This document shows positions 2,398 to 18,425 of a DNA stretch of 40,176 bases, one piece after another (the stretch's first letter is position 1; every line of letters starts with the position of its first letter). The notes below the pieces were generated by a model, which was not told where the DNA came from, did not search any database, and worked only from the letters and a program-made list of their open reading frames with translations. Location of the stretch: positions 1 to 40,176 of the IMG/VR virus record IMGVR_UViG_3300028189_000548, one strand, 5' to 3'. Position numbers and translations under genes: made by a program. Source of the stretch: a virus.

Positions 2398-3126
2398 TTA
2401 TTTTATTATATTTAATATATTAATCATTGTTGCCATAAAATTTATTTCTCTATCCACGATGTTTTTTTCTCTAAACTGACCTTCAGCCAGTTCTAATATA
2501 CATTCCGCGACATGACCACTCGCCCATGAATCCAGTTCATCAAATAGTAATCTGAACATATCAGCAAATTCTGTAACTTGGGTGTCTGCTAATAATTGTC
2601 GTATATTCTTAAATGCGCTCTTCTTATCTTGTGACTTTAGTATTTCTAATAATTTTAATTTGTAATCATTTTCAACCATACTACGTTTATCAACAGTCAA
2701 TTTACCATTTATAGATTGCTGTTGGACTGAATTGATTATTCGTCTAATGTCTGGATACCCACTATTAACGTTCAATACTATGTCCTCTACGTTGTATTCT
2801 ATTTCTTCCTTATCCAATATACCCTTTATATGTACTGCAATTTCTTTTTTGGATGGTGGAATTATCTGAAATGTTTGACATCTACTTTGGATTGGATCAA
2901 TTATTCGTTCTACATAATTACAGGTTAGAATAAACCGAGAATGTTTACTGAACGTTTCCATTAGATTTCGTAGTGCTGCTTGACCTTGTGGGGTGACGAA
3001 ATCACAATTATGTGTAAGTGTTTCTGTTTTACCTATTACGAAATTATGATTACCGTCAACTGACAAGTCATACACGTGCTGGGTGTCTTTTAATTTTTTT
3101 ATAGATTTAATCTTTATCTTGTTCAC
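2398..3126 (-). CDS. 44: Clamp loader small subunit gp44, C-terminal half with intein C-half
   Basis: A 242-aa protein. Residues 1-40 are an intein C-terminal fragment ending THN. From Cys41 it reads CDFVTPQGQAALRNLMETF, the direct continuation of the Walker B 'DE[C]D' of the AAA+ clamp loader truncated at 4065-4697. Further on, CNYVERIIDPIQSRCQTFQI contains the sensor 1 Asn and the conserved 'SRC' arginine finger of RFC/gp44 subunits, followed by the lid and collar domains. Joined to the 109-aa N-extein this gives a protein of about 311 aa, close to the 319 aa of T4 gp44. Trans-splicing would restore the clamp loader that places gp45 on primer-template DNA. Confidence 0.9.
   Translation of the reverse strand: MNKIKIKSIKKLKDTQHVYDLSVDGNHNFVIGKTETLTHNCDFVTPQGQAALRNLMETFSKHSRFILTCNYVERIIDPIQSRCQTFQIIPPSKKEIAVHIKGILDKEEIEYNVEDIVLNVNSGYPDIRRIINSVQQQSINGKLTVDKRSMVENDYKLKLLEILKSQDKKSAFKNIRQLLADTQVTEFADMFRLLFDELDSWASGHVAECILELAEGQFREKNIVDREINFMATMINILNIIK
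3007..3126 (-). other. Split intein C-half (gp44)
   Basis: Residues 1-40 of the gene at 2398-3126. They contain KIKIKSIKKLKDTQHVYDLS (block F strands), a block F-like NHNF, and the terminal block G TETLTHN followed by nucleophile Cys41. The penultimate His and terminal Asn needed for Asn cyclisation are present, so the half looks functional. Its partner is the N-half at 4068-4370. Confidence 0.85.
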
Positions 3127-4000
3127 TATAACCTATTCCCACATACATTTTATTTAATTGTATTTTGTTATTATCAATAAATATTTCTGAATTTATATAA
3201 TCCATAATATTATTTTCATTTATCCACTTGAATTTATATCCACTCACATCACAATGTTTTATTAAGCTGTCTATTTTTTTTGTTTGTTTTAAGAAAAAAC
3301 TTCTTGGTTTTATTTCATACAATATCTTTGTATCTTTATCGTAAAAATCACCCATATAAACTCTACCATTATCCGTTTTTTTAGTTCTACATTCCTTACT
3401 TTCATATTCTAAATGTTGATTACTATACCAAAAACAAGCTTCCCACGAACTCCTAAACTTTTTAACTTTACCATTAACTTCTATTATAGCATCCCAATGT
3501 GTAAATGTATTTGTTATTGGTGGTGTAAATTCACCATTGGAAATCTTTTCTCTCATCAACTTTGAGTTTAATTTTGCATTTCTTTTTATATTAGCCTTAC
3601 CCTTTTCAGTCTGGTTAAACTCTTTCATCTTTTTAGAATTGTGTTTTCCAAGTTGTGTATAAAATTGTTTAGCTTCATCCGATTGTAACCATTTTTTCTT
3701 TGTATGTTGTATCTTTTTAGCAATTTTTATATTATCTCGTTTTCGCATCCATACTCTATTACCGACACACTGATTACAATATTTTCCATTATTTTTTGTA
3801 TGAAATCTAGAATCACAATGTTCACATTCTTTCAACCTACCTATTTTTTTACATTCATAACATAACAATTGATTCGACGCTTTAGCTACATAATCTTTAC
3901 CACAACTGTCACAAATCTTATCATAATAATGAACTCCACCAAGGCCATTTCTATTTGCGGCATCTCTTAACTTTTGCCTTGTAGATTTTTTTATACTCAT
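3107..4000 (-). CDS. Zinc-finger/PD-(D/E)XK-like endonuclease between the gp44 halves
   Basis: A 297-aa basic protein. The N-terminal 85 residues hold three CxxC pairs (CDSC, CYEC, CEHC) and a CNQC, suggesting treble-clef or ribbon zinc modules. A Lys-rich helical segment follows. The C-terminal third has the order EVNGKVKKFRSSWEACFWYS, then GDFYDKDTKILYEIKPRSFF: an Asp followed by a strand ending in E-I-K, the core of PD-(D/E)XK nucleases. It sits exactly between the two gp44 fragments and overlaps the start of the C-half gene by 20 nt. It therefore most likely acts as a free-standing homing endonuclease spreading the split-intein locus. Specific cleavage is inferred. Confidence 0.75.
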   Translation of the reverse strand: MSIKKSTRQKLRDAANRNGLGGVHYYDKICDSCGKDYVAKASNQLLCYECKKIGRLKECEHCDSRFHTKNNGKYCNQCVGNRVWMRKRDNIKIAKKIQHTKKKWLQSDEAKQFYTQLGKHNSKKMKEFNQTEKGKANIKRNAKLNSKLMREKISNGEFTPPITNTFTHWDAIIEVNGKVKKFRSSWEACFWYSNQHLEYESKECRTKKTDNGRVYMGDFYDKDTKILYEIKPRSFFLKQTKKIDSLIKHCDVSGYKFKWINENNIMDYINSEIFIDNNKIQLNKMYVGIGYSEQDKD

Positions 4001-4064
4001 TTAACATCTCCATTGTTCATATATAAATATAACCAACTTGTGTTTTTCGAGTAAAAAAATCTAA

Positions 4065-4697
4065 CTATGGTGATAAAATATGATTATAGTTATCCAACTG
4101 ATTTGTTTTAACTACAATTGGATTACCATTTTTATCTTCGACGTACCATTTATGATCTTCAGTGCAAACAACTACTTCACCATTTTCAAGTTCAATCTCA
4201 TACACCTCTTGTTCACCCTTATCCCACAAGTGGAATGGTCTCCACTGCCATTCTTCTTTTTCAACATTCCAAGATTTAACTAAATCATTGTTTTCATCAA
4301 CATCTTTTATCGGAACTTGAATCTGTTCCCCATTCGATAATACAGTAACTAATGTATTTTCATCCAAACACTCATCAAGTACGACCACCTTTAAATCTTT
4401 AAATCCAATAGTTGATACGAATCCTTTTATTTTATTTCTAACAGAATCTACACTATTTTCATCACTCGCATTTATGTAAATATAGTCACATTCAATACTA
4501 TTTGAGAGTATTTTTGCGAGAGTTGTCTTACCGGTTCCAGCTGGACCAAATAATAGTAAGTGTGGGATGTCTCCACTTTCCAAATAAACCCTTACCTTTT
4601 CCTTTAGGTGGTCGTTTCCTATGTAAGTGTCTAATGATGTTGGCCTGTATTTCTCAACAAAAAGAGTATGTTCAGAATTTTGTTTGTTTTGTAACAT
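4065..4697 (-). CDS. 44: Clamp loader small subunit gp44, N-terminal half with intein N-half
   Basis: A 210-aa protein. Residues 1-109 are the AAA+ N-terminus of a clamp-loader ATPase: FVEKYRPTSLDTYIGNDHLK is the RFC box II motif, LLFGPAGTGKTTLAK is Walker A (about 49-63) and VVVLDE (104-109) is the start of Walker B. At Cys110 the protein turns into an intein N-half and ends at a stop. The interruption therefore falls inside the DE-C-D Walker B motif, so this fragment alone cannot hydrolyse ATP. The remainder is at 2398-3126. The start is taken at the ATG at 4697, preceded by GGAAG. Confidence 0.9.
   Translation of the reverse strand: MLQNKQNSEHTLFVEKYRPTSLDTYIGNDHLKEKVRVYLESGDIPHLLLFGPAGTGKTTLAKILSNSIECDYIYINASDENSVDSVRNKIKGFVSTIGFKDLKVVVLDECLDENTLVTVLSNGEQIQVPIKDVDENNDLVKSWNVEKEEWQWRPFHLWDKGEQEVYEIELENGEVVVCTEDHKWYVEDKNGNPIVVKTNQLDNYNHILSP
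4068..4370 (-). other. Split intein N-half (gp44), 101 aa
   Basis: Starts at Cys110 (CLDENTLVTVLSNGE), which matches intein block A. Block B is present as VVVCTEDHKWYVED, with the conserved TxxH. The half ends TNQLDNYNHILSP before the stop. All residues needed for the first N-S acyl shift are visible. Confidence 0.85.
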
Positions 4698-4792
4698 TTA
4701 ATTTCTTCCAAGTTTTATAATTTTTATTTTCACATCTATTTCCATGTTATCTCTCTATAATAAGTATTATTCATAACATTTTTACAAATAAA
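4698..4792 (-). promoter_or_regulatory. Leader of gp44 with a possible 15-codon minicistron
   Basis: This 95-nt gap separates the methyltransferase gene from gp44. On the minus strand it holds GAGAG, then an ATG at 4745-4743 opening a 15-codon frame (MEIDVKIKIIKLGRN). That frame stops at 4700-4698, directly next to the gp44 ATG at 4697-4695. The spacing would suit translational coupling, but so short a frame may be chance. Confidence 0.25.
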
Positions 4793-6022
4793 TTAAATTA
4801 ATTTACGAAATACCCACGTTGGCTCTCCAAAACTTTTATCATCTTTGTTTTCAAGGGATTTTTCTGTCCATTTACTATCTTCGTAGCCTTTTGCCGTTCC
4901 AGCTCCACCAGAATTTGGTCTTTTTGCTAACTGGTAACCTATACACCCCATATATTCACTACCTTCTATTTCAGATAAATAATCGTTCATCGGGTTGCAG
5001 ATTTCTAACCAACCCTTTTTTGTGACCCCCTTTGTACCTGAATACACATCTGATATATTCACTAATAGATGACCTCCTGGTTTAATACTTGGCCAAATTT
5101 TACCGAGGGTGGCCTGTAGGAAATCTCTATTCCAACCTTCTATGTCTTTGTATCTGACCCAACTTTGAGTGTCATCGTAACTGTATCTCTCTACTGAAAA
5201 ATACGGTGGTGAAGTGAATACCACATCGAAATAGTCATTGAACTGAGTGAAGTCAAAATCTTCTGCTGGTGAGCAATGGAATTCTGACTTTCTCTCGTGT
5301 TCAAAATATCCTAAATGTTTTTCGTAGAACTCTGCCTGTTCTTTGTATATAGGATGGTTCTCTTTTCGTGGGTCTAAACCTACATAATGTTTTCCATAGT
5401 CACTGGCGTAAAATCCTGCCAATCTATCACCCCAACCAGCACTGAAATCAAGGATGGTTTCTGCCTTAAACATATCGTAGATTGCTTTTGCCACATTTGG
5501 TTTAAACTGGGAACAGATATATTTTCGTAGAGCTAACATTACTCGTAACGTTGACTTGTCCATCTTTGGAACTTTGAGTGAGTATGCACTTCCCATTAAT
5601 GAAGTCATAAACTTTTTACTTTCCCAAGTTCGTTTTGGACCTGGTGATACTGAACCATCTACTGACCATCTGTTTTCAATCTGGAAATAATTACTACAAC
5701 TATTTCCTACATTTAGTCGTCTAAACATTAACTGCTTTCCATCGTAGTTTAGATTATAACTATACTTGGTGCCCTCTCTTGCATACCACTCACCCTCTAC
5801 CATTATTTCATTCCACTTCATACCTTTTAGTTTTTGGAAATCTCTATATGCTCTCTTTTCGGTTAAATCAGGATATGGAAGTGGATATGTCATTGCTACC
5901 GTGGCAAGACTTTCTTTTACATCTTGTTTTTCAAATGTTTCTTTTATGTATTCCCAATCTTTCTCGTCTATTTTGAGATAGGGCTCCATATTGTAAAATT
6001 TGTCAAAGTAATCTATATACAT
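4793..6022 (-). CDS. DNA methyltransferase with TSPPY motif
   Basis: A 409-aa protein. Motif I is ILDFSAGWGDRLAGF (residues 190-204, SAM binding) and motif IV is FTSPPYF (269-275, target-base catalysis), followed by WNRDFLQATLGKIWPSIKPG. The order I then IV, with an N-terminal domain of about 180 aa, fits an amino-methyltransferase; the S-P-P-Y form is most common in N4-cytosine enzymes. Its start overlaps the stop of the Cys-cluster gene by one base, so it is the last gene of a tightly coupled operon with the PLP enzyme. It could protect phage DNA from host restriction. Base specificity cannot be read from sequence. Confidence 0.8.
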   Translation of the reverse strand: MYIDYFDKFYNMEPYLKIDEKDWEYIKETFEKQDVKESLATVAMTYPLPYPDLTEKRAYRDFQKLKGMKWNEIMVEGEWYAREGTKYSYNLNYDGKQLMFRRLNVGNSCSNYFQIENRWSVDGSVSPGPKRTWESKKFMTSLMGSAYSLKVPKMDKSTLRVMLALRKYICSQFKPNVAKAIYDMFKAETILDFSAGWGDRLAGFYASDYGKHYVGLDPRKENHPIYKEQAEFYEKHLGYFEHERKSEFHCSPAEDFDFTQFNDYFDVVFTSPPYFSVERYSYDDTQSWVRYKDIEGWNRDFLQATLGKIWPSIKPGGHLLVNISDVYSGTKGVTKKGWLEICNPMNDYLSEIEGSEYMGCIGYQLAKRPNSGGAGTAKGYEDSKWTEKSLENKDDKSFGEPTWVFRKLI

Positions 6023-6576: not shown

Positions 6577-7522
6577 GTTTCCTTCTTAATTCTCTATCTA
6601 TAATCATTTCGTATTCTGATTTATGCCATTTGATTGGTTCGATATAACTCAAATCATATTCCTTAATCCCAACATCCCAAAATAACACATTTTCAGATGG
6701 TTCTATGTTCTTAACCATCCAATCCCATGCCTTTGCTTCGTATGTTTGATCAAGTGGTAATGACTCATCAAGTTTTAGTTTATGTTGGTATGGATAATCT
6801 GACTGAACAACTTTAAAATCTCCGTCAAATTTGTGACGATCATTGAGACGATCATACCACATTTTCTTGTTTTTATACACATAACCACTTAATGCTACAG
6901 GATATATCGTTTTAATATTCTTATTATACAACTTACAACCCATAGCTACACCCAACATAGACAAACCACTCCCAGCGATCCCCACCACAGTCTCTACGTG
7001 ATCCGGAACATTTTTGACTTGTTGGGCAATAGTTTTCATTACTTGTCGTCCATTCATACCAAATTTTATCTGAAAATAACCCGTTTCACCTACTAATTTC
7101 TTGGCATCAAGTTCTGGACCCGATATATTCGGATTACCTACTCCATATACCTTGGCACCAAACTTCTGTGCCAATGACACATTCACTCTGTAACTATCTT
7201 TAATGTGGTCGGGATAATGTAGTAATGTAACCAAACATTTTAGACCAAAATACTTAGCAACTGCGGATGTGATACAACTCTGAGGCGACGGTATACCGGC
7301 AGCCGTTAATATCCCACCATTACACTCATTGAGTATATGGTCTAAATTATCGTAGACAAGTTTAGAACATTGGCGGACTTTTCCACCTGAAACGCCTGCA
7401 AGGTTGAATTTATCGTCACGCTTGACCAAATAACCTTTATGTTCTTCAATCGGTGTTAATTCATTTGTCCAAGATTGAAAATGTTCTTCACTAAAAGTTG
7501 GGAAATTATCAAAGTCTATCAT
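6548..7522 (-). CDS. PLP-dependent enzyme, ACC deaminase/D-cysteine desulfhydrase-like
   Basis: A 324-aa protein of the tryptophan-synthase-beta fold. VKRDDKFNLAGVSGGKVRQ (33-51) matches 'iKRDD..g...GGNK.Rkle', with Lys48 the likely Schiff-base lysine. GGILTAAGIPSPQSCITSAV matches the substrate-binding 'GG.qSNH...tA'. GIAGSGLSMLGVAMG resembles the PLP phosphate-cradle Gly loop. Length matches the family (about 320-340 aa). The reaction is unknown; relatives act on D-cysteine or aminocyclopropane carboxylate. It is encoded between an HNH endonuclease and the Cys-cluster/methyltransferase pair, which makes a role in DNA or nucleotide modification conceivable but unproven. Confidence 0.7.
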   Translation of the reverse strand: MIDFDNFPTFSEEHFQSWTNELTPIEEHKGYLVKRDDKFNLAGVSGGKVRQCSKLVYDNLDHILNECNGGILTAAGIPSPQSCITSAVAKYFGLKCLVTLLHYPDHIKDSYRVNVSLAQKFGAKVYGVGNPNISGPELDAKKLVGETGYFQIKFGMNGRQVMKTIAQQVKNVPDHVETVVGIAGSGLSMLGVAMGCKLYNKNIKTIYPVALSGYVYKNKKMWYDRLNDRHKFDGDFKVVQSDYPYQHKLKLDESLPLDQTYEAKAWDWMVKNIEPSENVLFWDVGIKEYDLSYIEPIKWHKSEYEMIIDRELRRKHEQVKHNFF

Positions 7523-8129
7523 TCATCACCCTGTAACCTTCTTTTTGTAAATAACTTATTGCCCAATCTGTTAGGTCATTTTTTCTTACGCCGTGGGGAT
7601 GAGAACCAGTCCAAAGTTCCAAGTTCTCAATTCTATTATCATCTCGTATTCCGTTTTTATGATGAACTGTTTCCTTGGATGTGAGAGTCCTACCAATATG
7701 TGCTTCCATAACCAAACGATGCTCCAAGACTCGTCTATCTTTTGATTTAGGATGGTCAGGTGCAAATTTCAAAACATATCCTTCTCTTGTGTAAGTTCTA
7801 TGACCACCAAAAAGTGGATGATTTTCAGTTCCAGCTGTTTCAGGGATTGACTTTCCCATTAGACAGCCACAACTTTTAGATTGATATTTACCAATTAATT
7901 GCCAGTTAGGCCTCAAGGCATACATACCACAATCACATTTACAAACCCACCACCATCGTTGAGATTTTTCTACTCTCGTAGAATATAAAACTTTAAGATG
8001 GTGAATTCTTTTACCTGTAAAGTCTTTGGTTCTTGGATCTAAACCATCTAACGGAATATGTTCCCAAATTGGTTTTTCATTTCTCCTACTATGATTAAGC
8101 CCTCGTTGTAGTGTCTTTTTTACCTTCAT
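7509..8129 (-). CDS. HNH homing endonuclease
   Basis: A 206-aa protein. The middle carries GKRIHHLKVLYSTRV...WWWVCKCDCG, the 'G..fg.L.vl.......W.C.CdCG' module typical of free-standing phage homing endonucleases. The C-terminal part has RRVLEHRLVMEAHIGR, then ETVHHKNGIRDDNRIENLEL, the HNH nuclease core (H-H...N...H/N). It overlaps the start of the PLP gene by 14 nt and lies in the accessory block after the clamp gene. It probably nicks or cuts DNA to promote its own spread. Confidence 0.88.
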   Translation of the reverse strand: MKVKKTLQRGLNHSRRNEKPIWEHIPLDGLDPRTKDFTGKRIHHLKVLYSTRVEKSQRWWWVCKCDCGMYALRPNWQLIGKYQSKSCGCLMGKSIPETAGTENHPLFGGHRTYTREGYVLKFAPDHPKSKDRRVLEHRLVMEAHIGRTLTSKETVHHKNGIRDDNRIENLELWTGSHPHGVRKNDLTDWAISYLQKEGYRVMNDRL

Positions 8130-8250: not shown

Positions 8251-8263
8251 ATCTATAAATAGT

Positions 8264-8290
8264 TCGTTAGGAAAAAAATCGTTAGGAAAA
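8264..8290. repeat. Short tandem direct repeat TCGTTAGGAAAA (two copies)
   Basis: The 12-mer tcgttaggaaaa occurs at 8264-8275 and again at 8279-8290, in the 60-nt gap between the clamp gene stop and the small MGRKK gene. No hairpin or T-run typical of a terminator is seen. It may be a slippage product or a binding site. Confidence 0.5.
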
Positions 8291-9092: not shown

Positions 9093-10009
9093 TTAAAAAA
9101 ATCTTTCTATACTTTGTGCTTCATCTACTGGTTTACCCCAATCTAAACATTCATAAAATAGATTGAGTTTTTTAGTGAGTGCTCTATCATAGATTTTATC
9201 ATAATCCATATTATCTTCTATGAATTTCATAATCTCGGGTGGATCTTCATAACCTTTATATGCTACTACTGATAATCCTAATGAGTTATTCTTTAAATAT
9301 ACCCACCGGATTTTATCCCCATTACTTATAAATCCATATTTTTTATCTCGTTTGTAATATCGCAATAAATCATTATAACTTACTGCTGCCCTTACATGGA
9401 CTGGAATACCGTTCTTCAATACTGTAAATACTGAAGTATTTTCTTTGTCCTTTTTAATATATTTCTTAATTCCCTTTACACCGGTTGGAGAAGAAATATC
9501 ATCTAAATCTTTTAATCTCATGTTCTTCTTAAATCTGGTTATTCTATGGTCTATCTTATCCCGTGGAACACTTGCTAAAATGTCCTCTAATACATCGTTT
9601 AATAGTTTTCTAAATGCCGGTGCGAAATTACTACGTACAGTATCTAATCCCTTTACCATTGTCTTATTTACTTGAACTCCATTATCACTAATGAGTTTCA
9701 TACCATATCGTTTCTTTGTAATGAATAAACCAGACTTTGCTATAATTTCCTGTTTGATTTCAAATCGGTGTGTGTCTAAGTTACAGAATTTCTTAGCGAA
9801 ATAGTCGTATGAACCATTTAAGTATTCTTGAACTTCAGTTGCAATTTCATTTATTCGTTGAGTCATCATTACATCACTCAGGCTTTGACCTTTGAAACGG
9901 TGGTTAATGAGGTCTACAACTGATAAAAATATAGAATCAGTCAAGTGTCGACGTAGATAATTCTATCAACATCGAGATCTGGCTGCCTCCTTATTTGTTT
10001 TATTTTCAT
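9093..10009 (-). CDS. 43: DNA polymerase gp43, C-terminal half (motif C, palm and thumb), frame disrupted
   Basis: An ATG at 10009-10007 overlaps the endonuclease stop as ATGA. It reads MKIKQIRRQPDLDVDRIIYV, then D, T, and stops (TGA at 9943-9941). Five nucleotides beyond the last ACT codon the second ACT (9941-9939) opens TDSIFLSVVDLINHRF, which continues through the palm/thumb (RFKKNMRLKDLDDISSPTGV) to FF at 9093. The two frames together rebuild motif C of family B polymerases as YVDTDS, whose Asp residues bind the catalytic metals. The only start codon inside the second frame is a TTG at 9944-9942 without a ribosome binding site. So the half is either expressed by a 5-nt translational hop, or it is a pseudogene or an error. 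Confidence 0.8.
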
Positions 10010-10479
10010 ATTATAATTTTCCTTATATGTTCTAAAACGGTTTCTTTACTCAAATTCCAATCATTTTCCCAAATTATTATTGGGATATATCCATTATCTT
10101 CATAAAAATTTATTTTAATTTCATCATACTCCCAAATTTCATTGGCAACTTTACCCCCTCTAATAGTATGAGTCTCATTATATAACTGCGGATTCATGTG
10201 CCAATAATCACCAAAAAATTCTATAATATAATTTTCATATTTACCATCTGCCACATAACACCCAATTCGAACTTCTGGTTGGATCTCAATATTAAGTTCA
10301 CGTTCTATTTCCTTCATTACAGAAATAGATAATTTTGATTTTGAATTAAATTTAACACGTTTACTTTCAGCCTCTATTTCTGTATATCCATTATGTAACC
10401 AATACTCAATTTTAGTTGTATTATAAAGTAAATTCCAAATTTTTCTTCTATTATCATCTGTATAATCTAACTCAAAAAA
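10006..10479 (-). CDS. Vsr-like endonuclease between the polymerase halves, no canonical start
   Basis: A frame of 157 codons open from 10479. The nuclease part resembles the Vsr family: a metal-site strand YIIEFFGDYWHMNP (compare 'iFVDGcFWHgc') and NEIWEYDEIKINFYEDNGYI followed by PIIIWENDWN (compare 'W..Ki..N...d..L...GW.v...WE'). Upstream, WLHNGYTEIEAES resembles the helical 'GYs.eEA' module of phage endonucleases. That N-terminal part has no ATG, GTG or TTG. The first ATG (10317-10315) would delete it. The frame is -1 relative to the polymerase/intein frame and overlaps its end by 13 nt. Either it is made as a fusion by frameshifting, or it is truncated. Confidence 0.7.
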   Translation of the reverse strand, partial: FFELDYTDDNRRKIWNLLYNTTKIEYWLHNGYTEIEAESKRVKFNSKSKLSISVMKEIERELNIEIQPEVRIGCYVADGKYENYIIEFFGDYWHMNPQLYNETHTIRGGKVANEIWEYDEIKINFYEDNGYIPIIIWENDWNLSKETVLEHIRKIII

Positions 10480-12227
10480 TCATCGGTTTCCAGTAAATCT
10501 TTTACTTTTATTTCCATTTTTTTACCATTTCGTATTACATCAACTCTATTGTTTTCATATAACTTTCTAACTTCACCGTTTTCTAATTCAACTTCAACTG
10601 GAGTACCAATCTCACTATTATAAAAATGATTTGTTATTTTTGCAGTAAACTTAATTAATTCTTGCCCTGCCGTTGTAACTGAGGTTGCATTTTCTAAATC
10701 GTAAAATCTCCAACCCTGAAGTCCAAGAACACCGTACATACTATTAAGTAAAATTTTCTGAATATATTGTCGTCTGTTAAAGTATTCATATTTTTCGTCA
10801 TTTCCGTCGTCTGCAAATTTCTTAGCTAATTTCCTAAACTCTGATCTTGTATCAAACCACTTGGATAAAATAGTTGGTATTAAACCTGCTTTGTCTGTTT
10901 TATATAATATACCAGCACTTGAAATAGATATTTGATTATCATTAAAAAAGTCCTCTAATTCTGTATTTGTTAGTTGGCCCTTCTTCTTTCCATTTAATAT
11001 GATAGAATGTGTCTTTTTTTTCTTTGATATAAATTCTTTAGCATTCCAACCAACTACCCTTCCAAACTTAGTTTCTGGGCTGATATTCAAACTCATTATT
11101 AAATTTGGGTACATACTTGTCAGATCCAAATCTATAACCCAGTCATGTTTACCACGTTGTGGACTTTTTACGTATGCTCCTACGAACTTATTATCTGTAT
11201 ATTCACCCTTTTCTGGTTTGTTTGGTGCTACGATGTTTAATTTTTTCAAATGAGTGAGGATTGCCCCTTCTAAATATCTACTACTGAAATATATGTCCTC
11301 ATATGGAACATGACCGATATGACAAATACCACGGGCAATATCAATGAAATCTAATTTATCATCCAACTGTTTTACTATTCTAACATCATGAATGTTATAT
11401 TCCACAAACTTTCTCAAGTCGTTTTCAAATAAATCGTTTAGTGTTCCATCGTAACTTATTTTTGGTGATCCAACTTCAAATTGACCAATGGCATCTAATC
11501 TATATGATGGTCTTGACCCAAATGTAAAATCCTTATAGAGTAGTAAGTAATCTAATACACTTACACCTGCTATTTTATATCGTTTCGTGTATTTACTATA
11601 CATCACCTTTGATATTGGTGATAGATTGTCAGCAACACTTTGACCGAGAACTTTAATTGTTCTGTTGTATAAATATGGAATATCAAACCCATCTACGTTC
11701 CAACCTGTAATAATAGTTGGTCGTAGCTCTAAATACTTTTGGTAAAATCTTTGTAATAATTCATACTCTGTTTGGTGACTCTCAACTACGACATTCTTTC
11801 CAAATCCTGTTGTGTCTAGTGTCTTATGTTCGTCTAATGCTAAGCACGTATAAACATTACTGATGTTATCCCACATTGCAATAGATGTGATTTTATTTGG
11901 ACCAATCATTGGGTCTGGAAAGCCCTCTGTTACTTCACACTCAATGTCAAATATGAATATTTTATGTCCAGTAGATGGTTCTTCACTTTGACCGTACATA
12001 TCTATTAATGTCCGCATTTCAGGATTTACATCACTTTCAAATAATCCTTCTGCAGTCTTATCCCATCTGTATATCTTCTTTAATTTATCACCGTATAAGG
12101 ATGCAAAAGTTCCATAGTTGTCTCTAACATAAGCATACTTTTTGTATTGTGTTGAAACATATCCGGCTTTGTCGTCCCAAATGTGGACCTTTCCCTTGAA
12201 TGGTTCTACGAATATATTTTGGTAAAT
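10467..12227 (-). CDS. 43: DNA polymerase gp43, N-terminal half (exonuclease, motifs A and B)
   Basis: Family B replicative polymerase. Exo I is FDIECE, Exo II is NVDGFDIPYLYNR and Exo III is YNIHDVRIVKQL. Motif A is DLDLTSMYPNLIMSL and motif B is QKILLNSMYGVLG. The protein then ends 44 residues after NHFYNSEIGT, before motif C. The frame stays open 70 codons upstream of the first ATG (12017), and these codons read as real polymerase N-terminus (HIWDDKAGY, YAYVRDNYG, SLYGDKLKK, GLFESDVNPE). No ATG, GTG or TTG exists there. An ATT at 12227-12225 preceded by AGAGG with 7-nt spacing is the best start, giving 586 aa. Confidence 0.88.
   Translation of the reverse strand: MYQNIFVEPFKGKVHIWDDKAGYVSTQYKKYAYVRDNYGTFASLYGDKLKKIYRWDKTAEGLFESDVNPEMRTLIDMYGQSEEPSTGHKIFIFDIECEVTEGFPDPMIGPNKITSIAMWDNISNVYTCLALDEHKTLDTTGFGKNVVVESHQTEYELLQRFYQKYLELRPTIITGWNVDGFDIPYLYNRTIKVLGQSVADNLSPISKVMYSKYTKRYKIAGVSVLDYLLLYKDFTFGSRPSYRLDAIGQFEVGSPKISYDGTLNDLFENDLRKFVEYNIHDVRIVKQLDDKLDFIDIARGICHIGHVPYEDIYFSSRYLEGAILTHLKKLNIVAPNKPEKGEYTDNKFVGAYVKSPQRGKHDWVIDLDLTSMYPNLIMSLNISPETKFGRVVGWNAKEFISKKKKTHSIILNGKKKGQLTNTELEDFFNDNQISISSAGILYKTDKAGLIPTILSKWFDTRSEFRKLAKKFADDGNDEKYEYFNRRQYIQKILLNSMYGVLGLQGWRFYDLENATSVTTAGQELIKFTAKITNHFYNSEIGTPVEVELENGEVRKLYENNRVDVIRNGKKMEIKVKDLLETDDFLS
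10470..10598 (-). other. Decayed intein N-fragment at the end of the polymerase half
   Basis: The last 43 residues after GTP read VEVELENGEVRKLYENN, then RNGKKMEIKVKDLLETDDFL. This aligns by eye with the ends of the intein N-halves in this window (nrdJ: IKTLNGTEYEATEKH ... WKMVKDIDKDKDFL; gp44: IELENGEVVVCTEDHKW). The first 50 or so residues, with Cys1 and block A, are missing. The block B His of TxxH is replaced (YENN). It should not splice. Confidence 0.6.
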
Positions 12228-12253
12228 CTTATAACCTCTTTTGTTTAATTGGT

Positions 12254-12303: not shown

Positions 12304-13680
12304 TCAAGAATATTCTTGGTCGTCATTATCACCCGTACCGTAAATTATTTCACATCCAGATGAATCACAGAATTTTTCCACGTCAGCTTCTTCACCCTCG
12401 ATACCAACAAAACTCAACTTGCCTAGTTTTTTCACCATTTTATTATATGTCTTTTCGTCAATGGCTTCGTATGGCATTTGTCGGTATGCACCGAGTTCGT
12501 GGCGTGGTAATAACGATATTCCCTTTAATCTGTATTGGAAATAATTTAAAACTTGTGGTAATTCGGCAGACTCGGTTTCTGGATTAAATGTCGCCGTACA
12601 ACTCACTTGGTTGTCTGCCCAATGTCGTTGTAGGAATGCGGCTAAATTGAATTGTTCCCATATAGATAAATCACCTACAGTTCTAATTCCCTCACCTACA
12701 TCAACTGGAACCTCTACTACCATTGTACTATCTTCTGACCCGAATGCTGGTTCTAAATGATAGTTTGCCTTTTTTAATGGTTCGATCAATTCCGATTGTT
12801 TGGATAATCTCATCCGTCTTATATAAAACCTACTTTCTGGATAATGCATTCCGGGTGTTGCTCCTACTAACAAAGACACCGTCCCACTCGGTTTTATTGA
12901 GCTCAACTTTATACTTCTCGGTACTGCTAACCAATCTGAATACATTTTATCCCATTTTGTAAGTTCGTCGTATCCCTCTTCACACCACAGTTTTAATGTG
13001 TTTAATCCATTATTAGTAATAAATTGAGCTATACCACTCATAGATGTACCAATTCGTCTGTTGCGTAACATTACTCTATTAGTTTCTGGCCAATGAGTTT
13101 TTCCTAAAGTAACTGTTTTTGCATATAAGTATGCATACTTTAATGTCTTTTTATAATCTTCTAAGTCATCGTGGTGGTGTGGAAATGTCTCTACGAGACA
13201 ACATAGCTCGTAGCTTTCGAGTGATTGTTCCAGACAGGGATTTCCGCCTGCAACTCTGTGGTCTTTGTTATCGCCACCATTTTTCATACGAGAATATTCT
13301 CTCATATTTTCTAACCATGCAATTCCGGGTTCACCATTATCTACTATTCGTTTACATATATCAGTATAATCCATTCCGATTTCTGCAAATACTGAATTAT
13401 TAGATGTCCAACCAAATTGTTCCCGTTCTGGGTTCTTTTTGTAATTCTTTAAGTCTAAGTATTCTTCATCTGTAGCATCACCGAATACAATTTCTGCTGT
13501 ATTATGTGATACTATTGTCTCATCTACTCCATTTTCAGGATTTTTAACAAAGAAATGATGTTTATCTTCAACTTCTATGTCCCAAGTTTTTTCAACTTTA
13601 CCTTCATCAACTATATCCATAATAGTAACGAGTTCAAAATCTTCTAAATTAAAATCTTCTATTCCGTATTTTTCTATCAT
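12304..13680 (-). CDS. nrdJ: Class II ribonucleotide reductase NrdJ, C-terminal half with intein C-half
   Basis: A 458-aa protein. Residues 1-60 are an intein C-half; Thr61 begins the C-extein TAEIVFGDATDEEYLDLKNY, which continues the N-half gene after VAGNVRR. Reductase landmarks are GGNPCLEQSLESYELCCLVE (active-site Cys loop), SSIKPSGTVSLLVGATPGMH (phosphate-binding PSGT) and a C-terminal FCDSSGCEII resembling the redox Cys pair. The sequence resembles the monomeric adenosylcobalamin-dependent triphosphate reductases, so no NrdB partner is needed and none is present. Spliced length is about 668 aa. The enzyme supplies dNTPs for phage replication. Confidence 0.88.
   Translation of the reverse strand: MIEKYGIEDFNLEDFELVTIMDIVDEGKVEKTWDIEVEDKHHFFVKNPENGVDETIVSHNTAEIVFGDATDEEYLDLKNYKKNPEREQFGWTSNNSVFAEIGMDYTDICKRIVDNGEPGIAWLENMREYSRMKNGGDNKDHRVAGGNPCLEQSLESYELCCLVETFPHHHDDLEDYKKTLKYAYLYAKTVTLGKTHWPETNRVMLRNRRIGTSMSGIAQFITNNGLNTLKLWCEEGYDELTKWDKMYSDWLAVPRSIKLSSIKPSGTVSLLVGATPGMHYPESRFYIRRMRLSKQSELIEPLKKANYHLEPAFGSEDSTMVVEVPVDVGEGIRTVGDLSIWEQFNLAAFLQRHWADNQVSCTATFNPETESAELPQVLNYFQYRLKGISLLPRHELGAYRQMPYEAIDEKTYNKMVKKLGKLSFVGIEGEEADVEKFCDSSGCEIIYGTGDNDDQEYS
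13501..13680 (-). other. Split intein C-half (nrdJ), 60 aa
   Basis: Contains the block F-like TWDIEVEDKHHFFVKNPENG and ends ETIVSHN with Thr as the +1 nucleophile. At 60 aa it is longer than the other C-halves in the window (40 and 47 aa). Penultimate His and terminal Asn are intact. Confidence 0.85.
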
Positions 13681-13688
13681 GTTATCTC

Positions 13689-14639
13689 CTAATAAACGTC
13701 CAGCTTAAAATCAAATCCAAGTGATTTTGTTGCTTCAAATTTTAAATTATTTTTTTCCTTATCGAACTCAAGTGTATATGTGCCTTTCGTTTCAATAATT
13801 AAATTATCACCGGGTATATAAAAATCTGGATAGTATCGTCTTTTTTTACCTTCATAGTTATACCAAATCTCTGGCATATCACTCTTTTTGTATAAAATAT
13901 CATTTTCACTATATCCAGACTGAAATAAATTATCTAACGTTTTATTTTCGTATCCTTGAATTCTAATTCGTTTTCCGGATGGCATAGTATAAAATTTATT
14001 TGTATTATAATACCCACTATATCCGTCTAATGCCTTTTCTGCAAATTCTGGGTGATGCATTGGATTTTCTACACCATATAATTCTACCATCCTATCTCTA
14101 AATTCTTTAGTTCCAAATTTAAAATAATCTTCTCTACCATACTTTTCAATTATTGTTTGTTTAGCTTTCCTTTTAAACTCATCTGTCTGTGTGTAATAAT
14201 CAACACCGTATTCACTATTTATAAAATCCATTCTAATTTTTTTATATTCATTAGAATTTACATACGCAGTTGCTCCATATTTTTTTAAATTAGTTTTCAT
14301 TGTTCTATCTTTAACTTCGGGGATTTGTTGTGCATTGTCTACACCATATCTTCTTTGGAAAGTTTTTATTTTTTTATCAGTTATTTCCGTTTCATTACGC
14401 TTTTCTTGTATTTTTTTGATGGAAGTTGGAAATTGCCATGCGTTTTCATACCCATATTTTTCTTTCATTATTTTAGCTTGATGATTGTATCTCATTTTCT
14501 TTGCTTTATCACTCCAAGTGCATTTTTTATCACAGTAGAATAATCCACTTTCAATCCGTATCCTATAATCTCTATTCTTTTTTGTTTCATATTCTGTTCC
14601 ACAAATAATACAATTAACTTTTACAATTTCAAGTGCCAT
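13689..14639 (-). CDS. Endonuclease with repeated 'KYG' modules between the nrdJ halves
   Basis: A 316-aa protein. A Cys pair near the N-terminus (CIIC, then CDKKC) suggests a zinc finger. The middle consists of repeated units with a conserved Tyr-Gly: EKYGYENAWQFPTS, QRRYGVDNAQQIPEVK, KKYGATAYVNS, SEYGVDYYTQTDEF, EKYGREDYFKFG and ELYGVENPMHHPEF. These are DNA-binding repeats typical of phage homing endonucleases. The C-terminus RRYYPDFYIPGDNLIIETKG is a PD-(D/E)XK core (D...E-T-K). It lies exactly between the intein halves of nrdJ, 8 nt before the C-half gene, and presumably mobilises that locus. Confidence 0.82.
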   Translation of the reverse strand: MALEIVKVNCIICGTEYETKKNRDYRIRIESGLFYCDKKCTWSDKAKKMRYNHQAKIMKEKYGYENAWQFPTSIKKIQEKRNETEITDKKIKTFQRRYGVDNAQQIPEVKDRTMKTNLKKYGATAYVNSNEYKKIRMDFINSEYGVDYYTQTDEFKRKAKQTIIEKYGREDYFKFGTKEFRDRMVELYGVENPMHHPEFAEKALDGYSGYYNTNKFYTMPSGKRIRIQGYENKTLDNLFQSGYSENDILYKKSDMPEIWYNYEGKKRRYYPDFYIPGDNLIIETKGTYTLEFDKEKNNLKFEATKSLGFDFKLDVY

Positions 14640-14701
14640 TTTTTATCTCCTATATTCAATAATAACTATAAGAAAAGATAAAAAACATACATTTCCCGAC
14701 A

Positions 14702-15796
14702 CTATTTTTTCTGTTTTACGAGAAAATCTTTATCTTTATCTATATCTTTAACCATCTTCCATTCAAACCCATTATCTTGATTATAAACTAATAAAGTATG
14801 TTTTTCCGTCGCCTCATATTCAGTCCCATTTAAAGTTTTAATTTTTAGGACTTTTTGTTCGCCACTATCAAATGTATTTAAGACTTGTTTATAGCCATCA
14901 GCAGTTAAAACTTTATCATTTCTCGTTATTTCTTCCATCTTCTTAAATCCATCTTCAGTAAGAACTTCATACCATTTAGGTAAGCACCTGCGAACATTGC
15001 CGGCCACTACACACTTTCCAATCAAATTCATAATATCTACGATTGTGGTAACGGTTATTGGTTCACCTGTATTCTTTTCTAATACTTCACTTACGGTGTC
15101 ATGGACTTCTTCTAATGGTGTATATCCACTCGCCACACCACCAAAACCTTTTATTGGTTCACCTAGACCTCTAATGAGTGAATAATCAAATTTCATCGGG
15201 GCTGTTCCGTGAAAATATGATTCCAATAATAATTCTAAACTCTCTACCCAACCTTCTCGTGTATCTGGTATTTGAAATGTTTCTTCGTTTCTATCTCTAT
15301 TTATTCCCTTTATTATAATTTCACCAGCACCCTTTACATCAAACCCCACGCCGACACCCAACATTGAGGCATCCATTAAAAATGTGAATGGTTTGGAGTA
15401 ATCTTGTTTTAGTGTGGAAGTGGAGACGAATGCACAGTTGTTTAGGGCGGCATATAACTTCTTTTCTTCTGTGATAGCAGTTCCCATTGCCCATAAACCT
15501 CTGCCTGGTGGTAGAAATTTCATACTCCACATTCTCTCATACATTTCTTGAGCGGAGTTTTGAGCTTGCCATGGATTCCAACCTAATTGATGTTGTTCAA
15601 TCCATTCCTTTTGCATATTATATGTACCCTCTACAACCCGTTGAATGGTTTCCCACCACCTTTCATTTTTTCCATTTTCCTTGATACGGGAATAGGTTCG
15701 CATATACACTAACAGTCCCAATCCATTAAAGCCAAATGGTGGCTTTTTTCTCTTGTATCCGTTTATAAAATTTTCCGTTAAAACGAATTTATCCAT
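14702..15796 (-). CDS. nrdJ: Class II ribonucleotide reductase NrdJ, N-terminal half with intein N-half
   Basis: A 364-aa protein. Residues 1-270 are reductase: PPFGFNGLGLLVYMRTYSR, FLPPGRGLWAMG, then ALNNCAFVST with the first redox-active Cys (Cys121) and MDASMLGVGVGFD. The extein ends CVVAGNVRR270. From Cys271 to the stop is an intein N-half of 94 residues. The split therefore precedes the active-site Cys loop and separates the two redox Cys residues onto different polypeptides. A strong GGAGG precedes the ATG at 15796. Confidence 0.9.
   Translation of the reverse strand: MDKFVLTENFINGYKRKKPPFGFNGLGLLVYMRTYSRIKENGKNERWWETIQRVVEGTYNMQKEWIEQHQLGWNPWQAQNSAQEMYERMWSMKFLPPGRGLWAMGTAITEEKKLYAALNNCAFVSTSTLKQDYSKPFTFLMDASMLGVGVGFDVKGAGEIIIKGINRDRNEETFQIPDTREGWVESLELLLESYFHGTAPMKFDYSLIRGLGEPIKGFGGVASGYTPLEEVHDTVSEVLEKNTGEPITVTTIVDIMNLIGKCVVAGNVRRCLPKWYEVLTEDGFKKMEEITRNDKVLTADGYKQVLNTFDSGEQKVLKIKTLNGTEYEATEKHTLLVYNQDNGFEWKMVKDIDKDKDFLVKQKK
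14705..14986 (-). other. Split intein N-half (nrdJ), 94 aa
   Basis: Begins at Cys271 (CLPKWYEVLTEDG, block A). Block B is TEYEATEKHTLLVYN with TxxH-type His. It ends KDFLVKQKK. It looks catalytically complete for the first splicing step. Confidence 0.85.
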
Positions 15797-15845
15797 AACA
15801 TTCCTCCATAATTTCTCTATCCATAACTATTATAAATAGTAATAT

Positions 15846-16319
15846 TTATTCAAATCCACCCATGTCTTTGTCAGAATTATACTTATTTGCTAATTGTTTA
15901 CGTAGATATTCTTCACTATTATCCATTTTCTTTTGAGTTGTTTGACCATCTTGTGTATTTGCTTCAAAAATTTTAATACTACCATTATTTGTATTTATAC
16001 TAGCTGGAAATGTAATTCCATCAACACCGAATCTGTTTTTAATAACATGGAAACGGCCTGTATTGGCTATCTTATCTTCTACTTTTCTACTCATGGATAT
16101 AACAAAATCGGCAATCATAACTTTTGCATATGATTCGGCTACTTTACTTGCATCGATGACATCTTCTTCTAATGATGAATTATGTGAATATATACCATTA
16201 GCAAAAAACATATGTGTATCTTCAACTGTAATATCAACAGTATCTTCTTCCCCTACCAATTCAATAGAAACAATTTCATCCATTACAAAATCTTCTGGAT
16301 TTATGTTATGCATTTTCAT
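15846..16319 (-). CDS. 41: Replicative helicase gp41, C-terminal part with intein C-half
   Basis: A 157-aa protein. Residues 1-47 are an intein C-half ending YSHN. From Ser48 it reads SSLEEDVIDASKVAESYAKV, then MIADFVISMSRK, which continues the RecA-like core of DnaB/gp41 helicases after ASQANR of the upstream gene. The end (IFEANTQDGQ onwards) is the variable C-terminus. Its ATG (16319) is preceded by AAGGAA. Trans-splicing with 16551-18425 rebuilds the hexameric 5'-3' replication helicase. Confidence 0.9.
   Translation of the reverse strand: MKMHNINPEDFVMDEIVSIELVGEEDTVDITVEDTHMFFANGIYSHNSSLEEDVIDASKVAESYAKVMIADFVISMSRKVEDKIANTGRFHVIKNRFGVDGITFPASINTNNGSIKIFEANTQDGQTTQKKMDNSEEYLRKQLANKYNSDKDMGGFE
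16179..16319 (-). other. Split intein C-half (gp41), 47 aa
   Basis: Carries DEIVSIELVGEEDTVDITVE followed by DTHMFFANGIYSHN (blocks F and G), with Ser48 as +1 residue. It closely resembles in layout the C-halves of the gp41-type split inteins known from marine metagenomes. Confidence 0.87.
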
Positions 16320-16569
16320 TTACAAATTCCTTACATTTTTTAACTATATATTTTTCATCCATCTTATAGAAAACATCATCTACTCGTAAAATTTTATACC
16401 CCTTACTTTCTAAAATAATATCTCGTTGAATATCAAGATTTCCATCGTGCCAATATTCACAATCAAATTCAATTATTGAATTTCCACACTTGAAATCTGG
16501 CATTATAATTTTATTTGGATAATCATTTTCGTGATTTACAAAAAGTTTCTTTATTTCTTTGTAAATAAT
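16306..16569 (-). CDS. Short Vsr-like endonuclease between the gp41 halves, possibly truncated
   Basis: From the first ATG (16503) it is 65 aa: MPDFKCGNSIIEFDCEYWHD followed by GNLDIQRDIILESKGYKILR. The 'PDF...iieFD.eyWH' core matches the Vsr-type metal site. The open frame extends 22 codons further upstream (KKLFVNHENDYPNK), which looks like genuine domain sequence but has no ATG, GTG or TTG. That upstream part overlaps the end of the intein N-half gene in the -1 frame. The 3' end overlaps the C-half gene by 14 nt. It resembles the Vsr-like homing endonuclease family reported with fractured genes. Activity of so short a form is doubtful. Confidence 0.65.
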   Translation of the reverse strand: MIYKEIKKLFVNHENDYPNKIIMPDFKCGNSIIEFDCEYWHDGNLDIQRDIILESKGYKILRVDDVFYKMDEKYIVKKCKEFVNENA

Positions 16570-18425
16570 TTATCACCCACTTTTAATCCAGTTGCAACTG
16601 ATTTTAATTTACCATACATAACAGGTAAATCGTGATTAGCTGAAATAGTTATCTCTTTACCTGATTTCAATTTAACTTTATATACTGGTTGTTTTTCAAC
16701 TGGAAAAACTTTATTAACTTTTTTATATCCAAGATGAGTTAGAATTTCATCACCTTCTTTTATTTTTCCAATTTCTATTTCGCCATTTTCAGTTTCTACT
16801 TTATCAGTTAAAATATGACACCTATTCGCTTGACTTGCGGTCCAGATGGGGAAGTCGTATTCTCCTGCAAGACCTCTTAAATCTTCATAAATACTTTCTA
16901 ATACGTGTCGTTTTTCTGTTCCAACACCACGGAGAATATCTGCGTAATCTACTAATACCAAATCTATATTTGTTCCCTGTAATTCTATTTGTTTCAAATG
17001 GGATGAAAGTGTCTGGACTGTTGCACCCTTTGTTGGGAAGTATTTAATTAGTAGAGTTCCCTTTAATTCTGCAATTTTCTTCTTGACATCATCTTTATAG
17101 TATTTTATATTAGCCGTAGTCACTCCACTAAATACTGTATCAAATCGTAACCCCACGTAATTTTGATTTAATTCTAACGTATAATATACTACATTTAATC
17201 CATTCTTTACTGCTGATGCTCCTATTGCTTGTAAAGTCCAACTGTTATGTGATAAAATACCATTACCATAAAAACAATGAATGTCCTCTACTGATATATC
17301 ATATAAAATGGTTTCTGGCATTTCGTTAAACTTTAATACAGACATATATCCGGTGGTAGACACAATTTTATCACCAACCTTTAAATCTCGAACCTTTACC
17401 CAGTCACCGTCATATAATTTAAGTCTGTGATCCCAACTACAACGTAAAGATCTATTGTGAGATTTAAAATAAACTCTAACATTTTTTAGGAACTCAGTTC
17501 GTTGTAATGTTATAATATTTTTATATGCGTCCGGTGTTTTAATTAATATTTCAAATGGCAATTCATATTCTACATTTTGAACTTCTGGTATTCCTATTTT
17601 AGAAAATAAAGTTTTTAAGTTTATGGTTTCTAATACTTGTTTTTTAATAAATCCATCATTATCAAAAAATTTCCAAGCTGATGTCAATTTCTCTAAACCA
17701 TATGAATCAATTAATTTTATCTTATCCCATGGATCATACCATTCAGTATCACCATTTTCAATTAACTTTCCAAGTTTAAAAAATGCAATGTCAATTTTAG
17801 TACACCCACCAACACATTTTCCAATTCCGGCTGGGGCTACTACTACTCCTAATTCACCCGATCCTAAACCACCATCCATTATTTCATCTATGGTTTCCCA
17901 ACCAGTTTTTACGGTGTCTCTAGCAGAGTTAGCAAGTCGCTCTTCTATACCATCAATGTATTCATGTCCTAATTCTCTGTCACCACCAGCCTTCATTGCG
18001 TCATCTATGAGTTGCTTTATCTCATCATATTTACCGATTTCTAATAAATCAACACTATCCATTATTGCTGCTTTAATAACTTGATTTTTACAGAACTCTA
18101 ATGTCTGTTCTTGTATAAATGGTAAATCAGTTGATTCTATATATCTCCAACTTTCTTTTAGATTTTCTACCACGGACATCTTTAGAATGTCGTTTTCTAT
18201 ATCGTCTATTTTTACCTTTAATACTTCTAATGTAGGACCAGTTTTATACTCAAAGAAATAATCTCGTATTGTTTTTGCTAAAAACTTATTCGCATCAGAG
18301 TCGAAGTATGATGGTTCTAATATATCTGATATTGTTTGGAGGAACTTTTTATCACCAAGTAGTGATGATATTATTTTACATTGAAATGTTTTACCAAACT
18401 GTTGTAAAGTTGAGTGTTCACTCAT
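16551..18425 (-). CDS. 41: Replicative helicase gp41 (DnaB-type), N-terminal part, with one whole and one half intein
   Basis: A 624-aa protein. Residues 1-203 are the N-terminal domain and start of the helicase core, ending at the Walker A VVVAPAGIGK203. A complete mini-intein (204-394) follows, and SWTLQAIGASAVKNG resumes at Ser395. Walker B is NIDLVLVDYADILRG (486-500), and the core reaches FPIWTASQANR535. Cys536-Lys624 is an intein N-half, then a stop. Both a cis and a trans splicing event are needed for ATPase activity, since the P-loop itself is interrupted. The mature exteins (203 + 141 + 110 aa) total about 454 aa, close to T4 gp41 at 475 aa. Confidence 0.93.
   Translation of the reverse strand: MSEHSTLQQFGKTFQCKIISSLLGDKKFLQTISDILEPSYFDSDANKFLAKTIRDYFFEYKTGPTLEVLKVKIDDIENDILKMSVVENLKESWRYIESTDLPFIQEQTLEFCKNQVIKAAIMDSVDLLEIGKYDEIKQLIDDAMKAGGDRELGHEYIDGIEERLANSARDTVKTGWETIDEIMDGGLGSGELGVVVAPAGIGKCVGGCTKIDIAFFKLGKLIENGDTEWYDPWDKIKLIDSYGLEKLTSAWKFFDNDGFIKKQVLETINLKTLFSKIGIPEVQNVEYELPFEILIKTPDAYKNIITLQRTEFLKNVRVYFKSHNRSLRCSWDHRLKLYDGDWVKVRDLKVGDKIVSTTGYMSVLKFNEMPETILYDISVEDIHCFYGNGILSHNSWTLQAIGASAVKNGLNVVYYTLELNQNYVGLRFDTVFSGVTTANIKYYKDDVKKKIAELKGTLLIKYFPTKGATVQTLSSHLKQIELQGTNIDLVLVDYADILRGVGTEKRHVLESIYEDLRGLAGEYDFPIWTASQANRCHILTDKVETENGEIEIGKIKEGDEILTHLGYKKVNKVFPVEKQPVYKVKLKSGKEITISANHDLPVMYGKLKSVATGLKVGDKLFTKK
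16554..16820 (-). other. Split intein N-half (gp41), 89 aa
   Basis: Begins at Cys536 (CHILTDKVETENGEIEIGKI). It contains KSGKEITISANHDLPVMYG (block B with ANHD) and ends LKVGDKLFTKK. Length and layout match known gp41-type split-intein N-halves (about 88 aa). Confidence 0.88.
17244..17816 (-). other. Contiguous mini-intein in the gp41 Walker A motif, 191 aa
   Basis: Starts at Cys204 (CVGGCTKIDIAFF) directly after the P-loop Lys203 and ends NGILSHN394 before Ser395. Block B is the SLRCSWDHRLKLYDG region, and block F is ILYDISVEDIHCFYGNG. No LAGLIDADG or HNH motif is visible in the linker, so it is a cis-splicing mini-intein without a recognisable endonuclease. The insertion separates GK from the following Ser of the P-loop. 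Confidence 0.9.

Follow-up and report, generated by a model that had tools for sequence, protein, structure and literature searches.

Described systems of broken phage genes

Fractured genes of the gp41-1, gp41-8, and NrdJ-1 type, with split inteins and free-standing endonucleases, are reportedly the subject of Dassa et al. 2009, and programmed ribosome bypass in phages has, to our knowledge, been proven for one gene only, T4 gene 60. Here we compare with both the IMG/VR virus record IMGVR_UViG_3300028189_000548, the whole of which (40,176 bases, all relevant genes on the minus strand) is referred to below as the window. It comes from a T4-like phage whose replication and deoxynucleoside triphosphate (dNTP) genes are interrupted by several selfish inserts: split inteins in gp44, nrdJ, and gp41, a contiguous intein in gp41, and two breaks in gp43, the DNA polymerase gene; a DNA methylase gene is also broken. 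The reading that we favor, and hold to be reasonably probable, is that independent homing cassettes invaded these genes one after another, each at highly conserved catalytic sequence, with the damage repaired by protein trans-splicing, cis-splicing, and noncovalent assembly plus ribosome hopping.

The window shares with the fractured-gene type the placement of intein halves on two genes with an endonuclease open reading frame (ORF) between them, the gp41 and nrdJ hosts, and a Vsr-like (EDxHD) endonuclease type. It differs from that type in its gp44 host, in its DUF7487 and CxxC endonucleases, and in having three fractured genes, and a contiguous intein as well, within a single 16-kb stretch. 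Its split inteins are new members of this known kind, and no report of gp44 as a split-intein host was found in the literature searched, which did not include Dassa et al. 2009.

In T4, a gene is split into genes 39 and 60 by a homing endonuclease (mobA), and an insert lies in the conserved DADHDG motif (PMC5009743). This gene 60 insert has a 5' stem-loop, a stop after the take-off codon GGA, and a matched landing GGA; the ribosome hops it, and it is thought to protect against cleavage (PMC5009743; for the bypass mechanism, see also PMC11194080). In synthetic "stop-hops," a stop lies between matched codons, an arrangement close to the gp43 scar described below; few bypass cases are known, shorter matched-codon counterparts having long been presumed (PMC5009743). 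Like the T4 gene 39/mobA/gene 60 cassette (our comparison record L479), the window combines an endonuclease that splits the gene upstream with an insert in the best-conserved catalytic motif (DTDS; in T4, DADHDG) and has a stop directly after the take-off codon, matched codons, and a 5' stem-loop. Unlike T4 gene 60, the hosts here are a DNA polymerase and a methylase, the putative skips are 5 to 10 nucleotides (nt) rather than 50 nt, and the window hairpin ends at the take-off codon. The candidate hop elements resemble T4 gene 60 in a new and much shorter form, and the literature searched contained no description of comparable elements in the polymerase or methylase genes of phages.

Split inteins in gp44, nrdJ, and gp41

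The junctions and the intein models confirmed the proposal of the initial annotation that split inteins divide gp44, nrdJ, and gp41 into two genes each. Each N-half starts with Cys, and each C-half ends in HN before Cys, Thr, or Ser. With the junction marked by a slash, the gp44 N gene (4065-4697) ends in VVVLDE/CLDENT... and the C gene (2398-3126) starts with ...LTHN/CDFVTPQ; the nrdJ N gene (14702-15796) ends in GNVRR/CLPKWY... and the C gene (12304-13680) starts with ...IVSHN/TAEIVFG; and the gp41 N gene (16551-18425) ends in SQANR/CHILT... and the C gene (15846-16319) starts with ...YSHN/SSLEE. The component features are as follows.

4371-4697, minus strand: gp44 (clamp loader) N-extein, RFC/AAA matches, end VVVLDE
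4065-4370, minus strand: gp44 split intein N-half (Cys1, block B CTEDH), TIGR01445 at 2.7e-11
3007-3126, minus strand: gp44 split intein C-half, LTHN before Cys+1, TIGR01443 at 3.8e-7
2398-3006, minus strand: gp44 C-extein, RFC small subunit matches
14987-15796, minus strand: nrdJ N-extein, RNR_Alpha at 1.1e-41
14702-14986, minus strand: nrdJ split intein N-half, TIGR01445 at 3e-5
13501-13680, minus strand: nrdJ split intein C-half, IVSHN before Thr+1, TIGR01443 at 0.0037 (above the curated cut-off)
12304-13500, minus strand: nrdJ C-extein, RTPR at 1.5e-50
16551-16820, minus strand: N-half of the second, split gp41 intein (site 2), NCBIfam intein model at 0.0016
16179-16319, minus strand: gp41 split intein C-half, YSHN before Ser+1, TIGR01443 at 9e-8

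NCBIfam intein models thus matched all six ends. In gp44, nrdJ, and gp41 site 2, a Hint N part with Cys1 and a TxxH block B and a Hint C part with HN before C/S/T are present with intact catalytic residues; block B of gp41 site 2 is SANH, presumably as in the gp41-8 intein. The joined nrdJ intein halves match the gp41-1 intein (PDB 6qaz) at 5.5e-6, and the gp41 site-2 N-half matches the same entry at 5.8e-15 (a score for the whole protein).

Extein pieces were cut at the predicted junctions and searched as separate queries against about 305 IMG/VR loci (L numbers below), which were sampled by similarity to the window and are biased toward its relatives, so that counts are not population frequencies. 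Comparison with uninterrupted copies (counted with a tolerance of 40 nt) placed the extein halves next to each other, typically with 0 nt between them, in 162 to 171 loci per site. Across the interrupted sites of gp43, gp44, nrdJ, and gp41 (two sites), the joined sequences expected are YVDTDSIF, VVVLDECDFVTPQ, NVRRTAEIVF, GIGKSWTL, and SQANRSSLEED, respectively. In L007 and L011 the gp44 intein is unsplit, and the window halves are 94% (N) and 83% (C) identical to the unsplit L007 intein. The predicted structure of the unsplit gp44 intein is an intein fold (best PDB match NpuDnaE, E 1.6e-5, with matches to other inteins as well). At each of the three genes, two polypeptides would meet and be joined by protein trans-splicing, and the free-standing endonuclease between the intein halves would spread the insertion or would once have spread it. 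Split inteins without an endonuclease were also observed, in gp44 at L009:8343-8836 and in gp41 at L240:5401-5931, and likely represent a later stage after endonuclease loss.

A different endonuclease lies between the halves of each gene, as had been noted before.

3107-4000, minus strand: gp44 free-standing endonuclease ORF (four CxxC, FRSSWEACF..YEIKP), phrog_15427 endonuclease at 4.9e-14
13689-14639, minus strand: nrdJ endonuclease (DUF7487, KYG repeats, PD-(D/E)XK-like end), PF24308 at 1.9e-44, PHROG homing endonuclease at 3.8e-13
16309-16569, minus strand: Vsr-like (EDxHD-type) open frame between the gp41 halves, IIEFDCEYWHD, DUF559 at 0.00098

Homologues of the gp44 endonuclease occupy the identical site in L008, L010, and L021; its motif (FRSSWEACF..DFYD..YEIKP) is PD-(D/E)XK-like by motif only, and its AF2 model is poor. 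The Vsr/DUF559-like frame of gp41 has 87 codons with no ATG in the first 20 and is perhaps a degenerate remnant; as regards resemblance to I-Bth0305I or a Vsr fold, the E..D..WH motif is present in the Vsr-like frames, and no PDB sequence match was found. Endonuclease activity of these frames is predicted.

The other interruption of gp41 is a contiguous intein, which would be removed by cis-splicing.

17244-17816, minus strand: gp41 contiguous intein (191 amino acids) in the Walker A motif, GIGK/C...HN/S

This site is empty, with a 0-nt junction, in 166 relatives. The intein resembles VidaL in sequence (PDB 6vgv, 1.7e-9), although VidaL is split whereas the Walker A intein of the window is contiguous. 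The earlier inventory of breaks holds for the three split inteins; this intein, the gp43 breaks, and the methylase break had been missed.

The upstream split of gp43

Two breaks lie in gp43 (9093-12017), where the N gene with an added tail is followed by a Vsr-like frame and a 22-codon ORF, and the remainder of the polymerase, from TDSIF on, continues in a different frame.

10602-12017, minus strand: gp43 N part, DNA_pol_B at 1.3e-27, open frame reaching upstream to about 12250
10467-10601, minus strand: 44-amino-acid Hint-like tail on gp43N, no Cys1 block, ending LLETDDFLS and a stop, absent from intact relatives
10006-10479, minus strand: Vsr-like endonuclease open frame (IIEFFGDYWH), phrog_22677 at 2.4e-12, a match common to the L461 endonuclease
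9941-10009, minus strand: 22-codon ORF MKIKQIRRQPDLDVDRIIYVDT, then a stop, carrying the first catalytic Asp of gp43
9948-9975, minus strand: hairpin whose 3' arm is the YVD codons, more stable than all 201 intact gp43 junctions scored
9939-9946, minus strand: candidate hop site ACT-TG-ACT at the D^TDS junction (Thr codon, stop TGA, 5 nt skipped, matched Thr codon), identical in all sibling loci
9093-9938, minus strand: gp43 C part (DSIF onward), DNA_pol_B at 4.4e-8, 77 to 78% identical to intact gp43 of L165, L241, and L115

The stop of the Vsr-like frame overlaps the next ATG. Upstream of the called ATG of gp43N, the open frame at 12018-12250 (minus strand) has no obvious ATG start.

The tail and the head that flank the upstream split align with an intein profile (hhalign 87%, columns 53 to 114 of 142), but neither the nucleophile-bearing first block nor the HN-bearing last block is present. 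A split intein in gp43 was rejected on the grounds that there is no Cys/Ser1 and no HN and that the alignment covers only the middle of Hint. Split inteins are known from phage family B polymerases: that of MIJ3 lies in the identical DTDS region with an endonuclease between its halves (PMC6892783), and Aes123 PolB1 (PDB 9hth) is another. Unlike these, the window gp43 is without the Cys/Ser1 and C-terminal HN blocks and therefore cannot splice. A group I or II intron in the gp43 gap was also rejected: there is no Rfam match, and because the upstream part is without the YxD codons, RNA splicing would be unable to restore the motif.

We suggest instead that gp43 was split upstream by the Vsr-like endonuclease and that its tail and head probably only hold the two chains together noncovalently. 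In Aeromonas phages 25 and 44RR, gp43A/43B likewise reflect an endonuclease-associated split whose polypeptides assemble, at a different split site and without a DTD scar (PMC2988022). The tail/head split is also found in L089 (no cargo), L232 and L461 (another endonuclease), L400, and LR756508. At L400:6303-8148, gp43 is split at the identical loop, the cargo is a glycosyltransferase-like ORF, and DTD is free of a scar; in a jumbo phage (L307/L310, LR756508.1), the split at the identical loop carries a 4-kb cargo, and a complete contiguous intein sits exactly at D^TDS.

A frame-breaking scar in the DTD motif

The second break falls in the catalytic DTDS motif, where the window reads GTC GAC ACT TGA CT GAT TCT and intact polymerases read GAY ACN GAY TCN. 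Four further lineages are broken at the same place: L089 (ACT-TA-ACT), L232 (ACC-TGAAG-ACC), L461 (ACG-TAGT-GCG), and L477 (ACG-TGAA-GCG). The stop is immediately 3' of the Thr codon in all five (TGA, TAA, TGA, TAG, and TGA for the window, L089, L232, L461, and L477), and the distances skipped would be 5, 5, 8, 7, and 7 nt, with frames +2, +2, +2, +1, and +1. The take-off codon and the codon preceding the resume point are identical in three of the five lineages; in the other two the former is ACG and the latter GCG, a first-base G.U wobble. Outside the scarred lineages and the intein-bearing polymerases, the reading frame runs on through the motif at the loci that have a gp43 C part, and of the 440 records from cultured phages that matched a query spanning DTDS, 439 cover at least 80% of it in the alignment. 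By sequence differences there are at least three clearly distinct versions of the scar; the five lineages may share ancestry of the element, and the five-of-five counts are not independent trials.

The YxD codons before the break form the 3' arm of a stem-loop in all five lineages, with the 5' arm immediately upstream. The best hairpin ending at the junction has an energy of -11.0 kcal/mol in the window, -19.6 in L089, -18.0 in L232, -20.3 in L461, and -20.2 in L477, whereas 201 distinct intact gp43 junctions scored identically average -3.3 kcal/mol with a minimum of -10.4 kcal/mol. On arms registered by hand, L232 differs from the other scarred lineages by three compensatory changes from G-C to A-U pairs; the substitutions are silent on the 3' side of the stem and alter the encoded residues on the 5' side (VDVD to VNMN). 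L400 and LR756508, which have no scar, have no such hairpin.

Frame-breaking inserts with stops are usually the mark of pseudogenes, and the polymerase and methylase might be dead or the scars might be assembly or sequencing errors. We consider this very improbable. The identical scar recurs in several independent contigs of each of three lineages, the position of the stop is constant, and five lineages with 40 to 60% gp43 identity keep C frames that are open for 280 to 289 codons and under purifying selection (pN 0.28 to 0.40 versus pS 0.68 to 0.78, with pS saturated). Moreover, a lytic phage needs its replicative polymerase, and no second gp43 was found within these 20- to 40-kb pieces.

Three other explanations of the scar were rejected: selenocysteine-type recoding, given that the stops are TGA, TAA, and TAG; a simple -1 slip, given that the P-site Thr transfer RNA (tRNA) cannot re-pair and that the skips differ in frame; and re-initiation as a general answer, given that L089 has no start codon. 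We propose that the small insert acts through a hairpin on the motif codons, a take-off codon, an immediate stop, 2 to 7 nt, and a landing codon that the same tRNA could pair with (poorly in the methylase) in a new frame. The peptidyl-tRNA would most likely hop the insert as in T4 gene 60, restoring DTDS in gp43 and DPPYGYG in the methylase described below; folding of the hairpin behind the ribosome would help to pull the messenger RNA forward, and the Thr-tRNA would re-pair 5 to 8 nt on.

The 30 nt upstream of the window scar match two other carriers at 21 to 23 positions and L477 and L232 at 15, compared with only 12 to 16 for the intact L165, L241, and L115, to which the gp43 C part is so similar. 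Between L089 and L461, 28 of the 30 upstream positions are identical, whereas their C parts share 58%. Because the upstream 30 nt resemble carriers and gp43C resembles intact polymerases, the scar appears to be the border of a transferred cassette, and it would mark the endonuclease target.

A second hop-like element in a methylase gene

Just upstream of the other broken genes, a methylase gene (19257-21435) is broken in a similar manner.

20830-21435, minus strand: HNH/EndoVII-like endonuclease fused in frame ahead of the DNA methylase, phrog_1035 at 1.6e-9, phrog_3118 at 7.5e-9
20725-20765, minus strand: methylase hairpin, 3' arm formed by the DPPYG codons, -21.1 kcal/mol
20715-20724, minus strand: frame-breaking insert TGAATTAAGC after DPPYG, intact relatives having DPPYG-YGFMGK
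19257-20714, minus strand: methylase C part (YGFMGKDWD...), N6_N4_Mtase at 1.2e-25

After ...TDPPYG comes the insert, and the gene continues with YGFMGK in a changed frame; the corresponding sequence of relatives (L115 at 84%) is TDPPYGYGFMGK. The insert is exactly 10 nt long, its first codon is a stop directly after the Gly take-off codon, and the hairpin ends on that Gly codon; 12 intact relatives have a mean of -3.7 and a minimum of -9.5 kcal/mol. The break is found in five sibling loci. Because the 5' arm aligns without gaps with intact relatives, it arose by recoding and not by insertion.

All fetched loci were scanned for gene 60-type elements, defined as a hairpin plus a stop plus a frame change. 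Among 666 distinct sites, 50 had homologue support, and on inspection only gp43 and the methylase combined strong hairpins with exact junctions, the rest resembling out-of-frame noise; the window gp43 itself was below the energy threshold of the first scan.

Hopping or separate polypeptides

Several observations weigh against hopping and against the cassette model as a whole. The window gp43 hairpin is just below the most stable intact one. In the methylase, the landing AGC pairs with the take-off GGT at two bases only, and a GGT-to-GGA or TAT-to-TAT hop would give a product two residues shorter. T4 depends for efficient bypass on a nascent-peptide signal and additional stem-loops, and neither a KKYK-type nascent peptide, nor a take-off stem-loop, nor a 3' stem-loop was recognized in the window elements, for which no systematic search was made. 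The scar and the upstream split are separable, L477 having the scar without a gp43 endonuclease and L400 the split without the scar, and fold and PDB matches of the endonucleases are weak or absent. Finally, four of the five gp43 lineages have a possible C-frame start (TTG overlapping the TGA stop in the window, CTG in L232, and ATG in L461 and L477), and separate translation is possible there.

These starts lend some weight to a rather unlikely alternative, in which gp43 and the methylase are made as separate polypeptides by termination and nearby re-initiation and assemble noncovalently, the scar giving only immunity to the endonuclease. Activity despite a split is known for gp43 (phage 25) and NrdA (Aeh1) (PMC2988022), and the upstream split of L400 is viable without a scar. 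However, L089 has no C-frame start before the motif, the break would separate two catalytic aspartates, and the alternative leaves unexplained both the matched codons (five of five at bases 2 and 3) and the conserved hairpin with its compensatory changes.

The inverted repeat might also act on DNA, as a recognition site or the scar of an unrecognized mobile element, rather than on the ribosome. Its 5' arm is an inverted copy of the target codons, and the scar borders a transferred segment, both of which fit; yet the methylase 5' arm arose by recoding, and the stop always lies directly after the 3' arm, and we regard this explanation as improbable. On balance we lean slightly toward the view that short phage ribosome-hop elements form a mobile class, residing in polymerase DTD and methylase DPPYG motifs and often beside a homing endonuclease.

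Accumulation and spread of cassettes

Accumulation of breaks across one replication system, which had stood out in the initial annotation, is real and is seen in the window population. A score was obtained at four or more of the five sites in 99 loci. No insert was seen in 86 of these and a single insert in 4; the remaining 9, in which all scored sites are filled, are members of the window population, the only one with all sites occupied. An independent 17.5-kb contig, IMGVR_UViG_3300037805_000128 (L164), carries all five breaks. In related phages the sites are empty (the case for roughly 90% or more of those sampled), contiguous, split without an endonuclease, or split with one. The nrdJ cassette (1,486 nt) was compared between the window and L087 only and is 87% identical at the nucleotide level, compared with 76 to 77% for its flanks; the other sites of L087 are empty. 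From the patchy occupancy, and from the higher similarity of the nrdJ cassette than of its flanks, we infer that these are independently homing selfish elements.

It had also been suggested that dependence on several trans-splicing reactions could serve to time phage DNA synthesis. Such a role would fit with the clustering of breaks in one replication region, but the idea finds no support: no regulatory feature was found, and the patchy presence, the mostly empty sites, and a cassette more alike than its host gene are the mark of selfish elements. We consider this explanation very improbable.

In the same replication region, an HNH endonuclease ORF (7509-8129, minus strand; HNH_3 at 1.8e-11) adjoins gp45 and is a candidate free-standing homing endonuclease.

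Implications

The gp44 site offers a natural series of contiguous, split, and split-plus-endonuclease forms. If the cassette model is correct, selfish endonucleases in one replication region rely on no fewer than three routes of repair: trans-splicing, cis-splicing, and recoding. The hop elements would protect the target site from cleavage, with the protein being restored by the ribosome, and T4 gene 60 would be one member of a wider kind. Five lineages with a hop-like polymerase break, together with a second gene in the window, would then turn a singleton into a comparative system, made up of short, clonable elements with natural variation that spans skips of 5, 7, 8, and 10 nt and all three stop codons.

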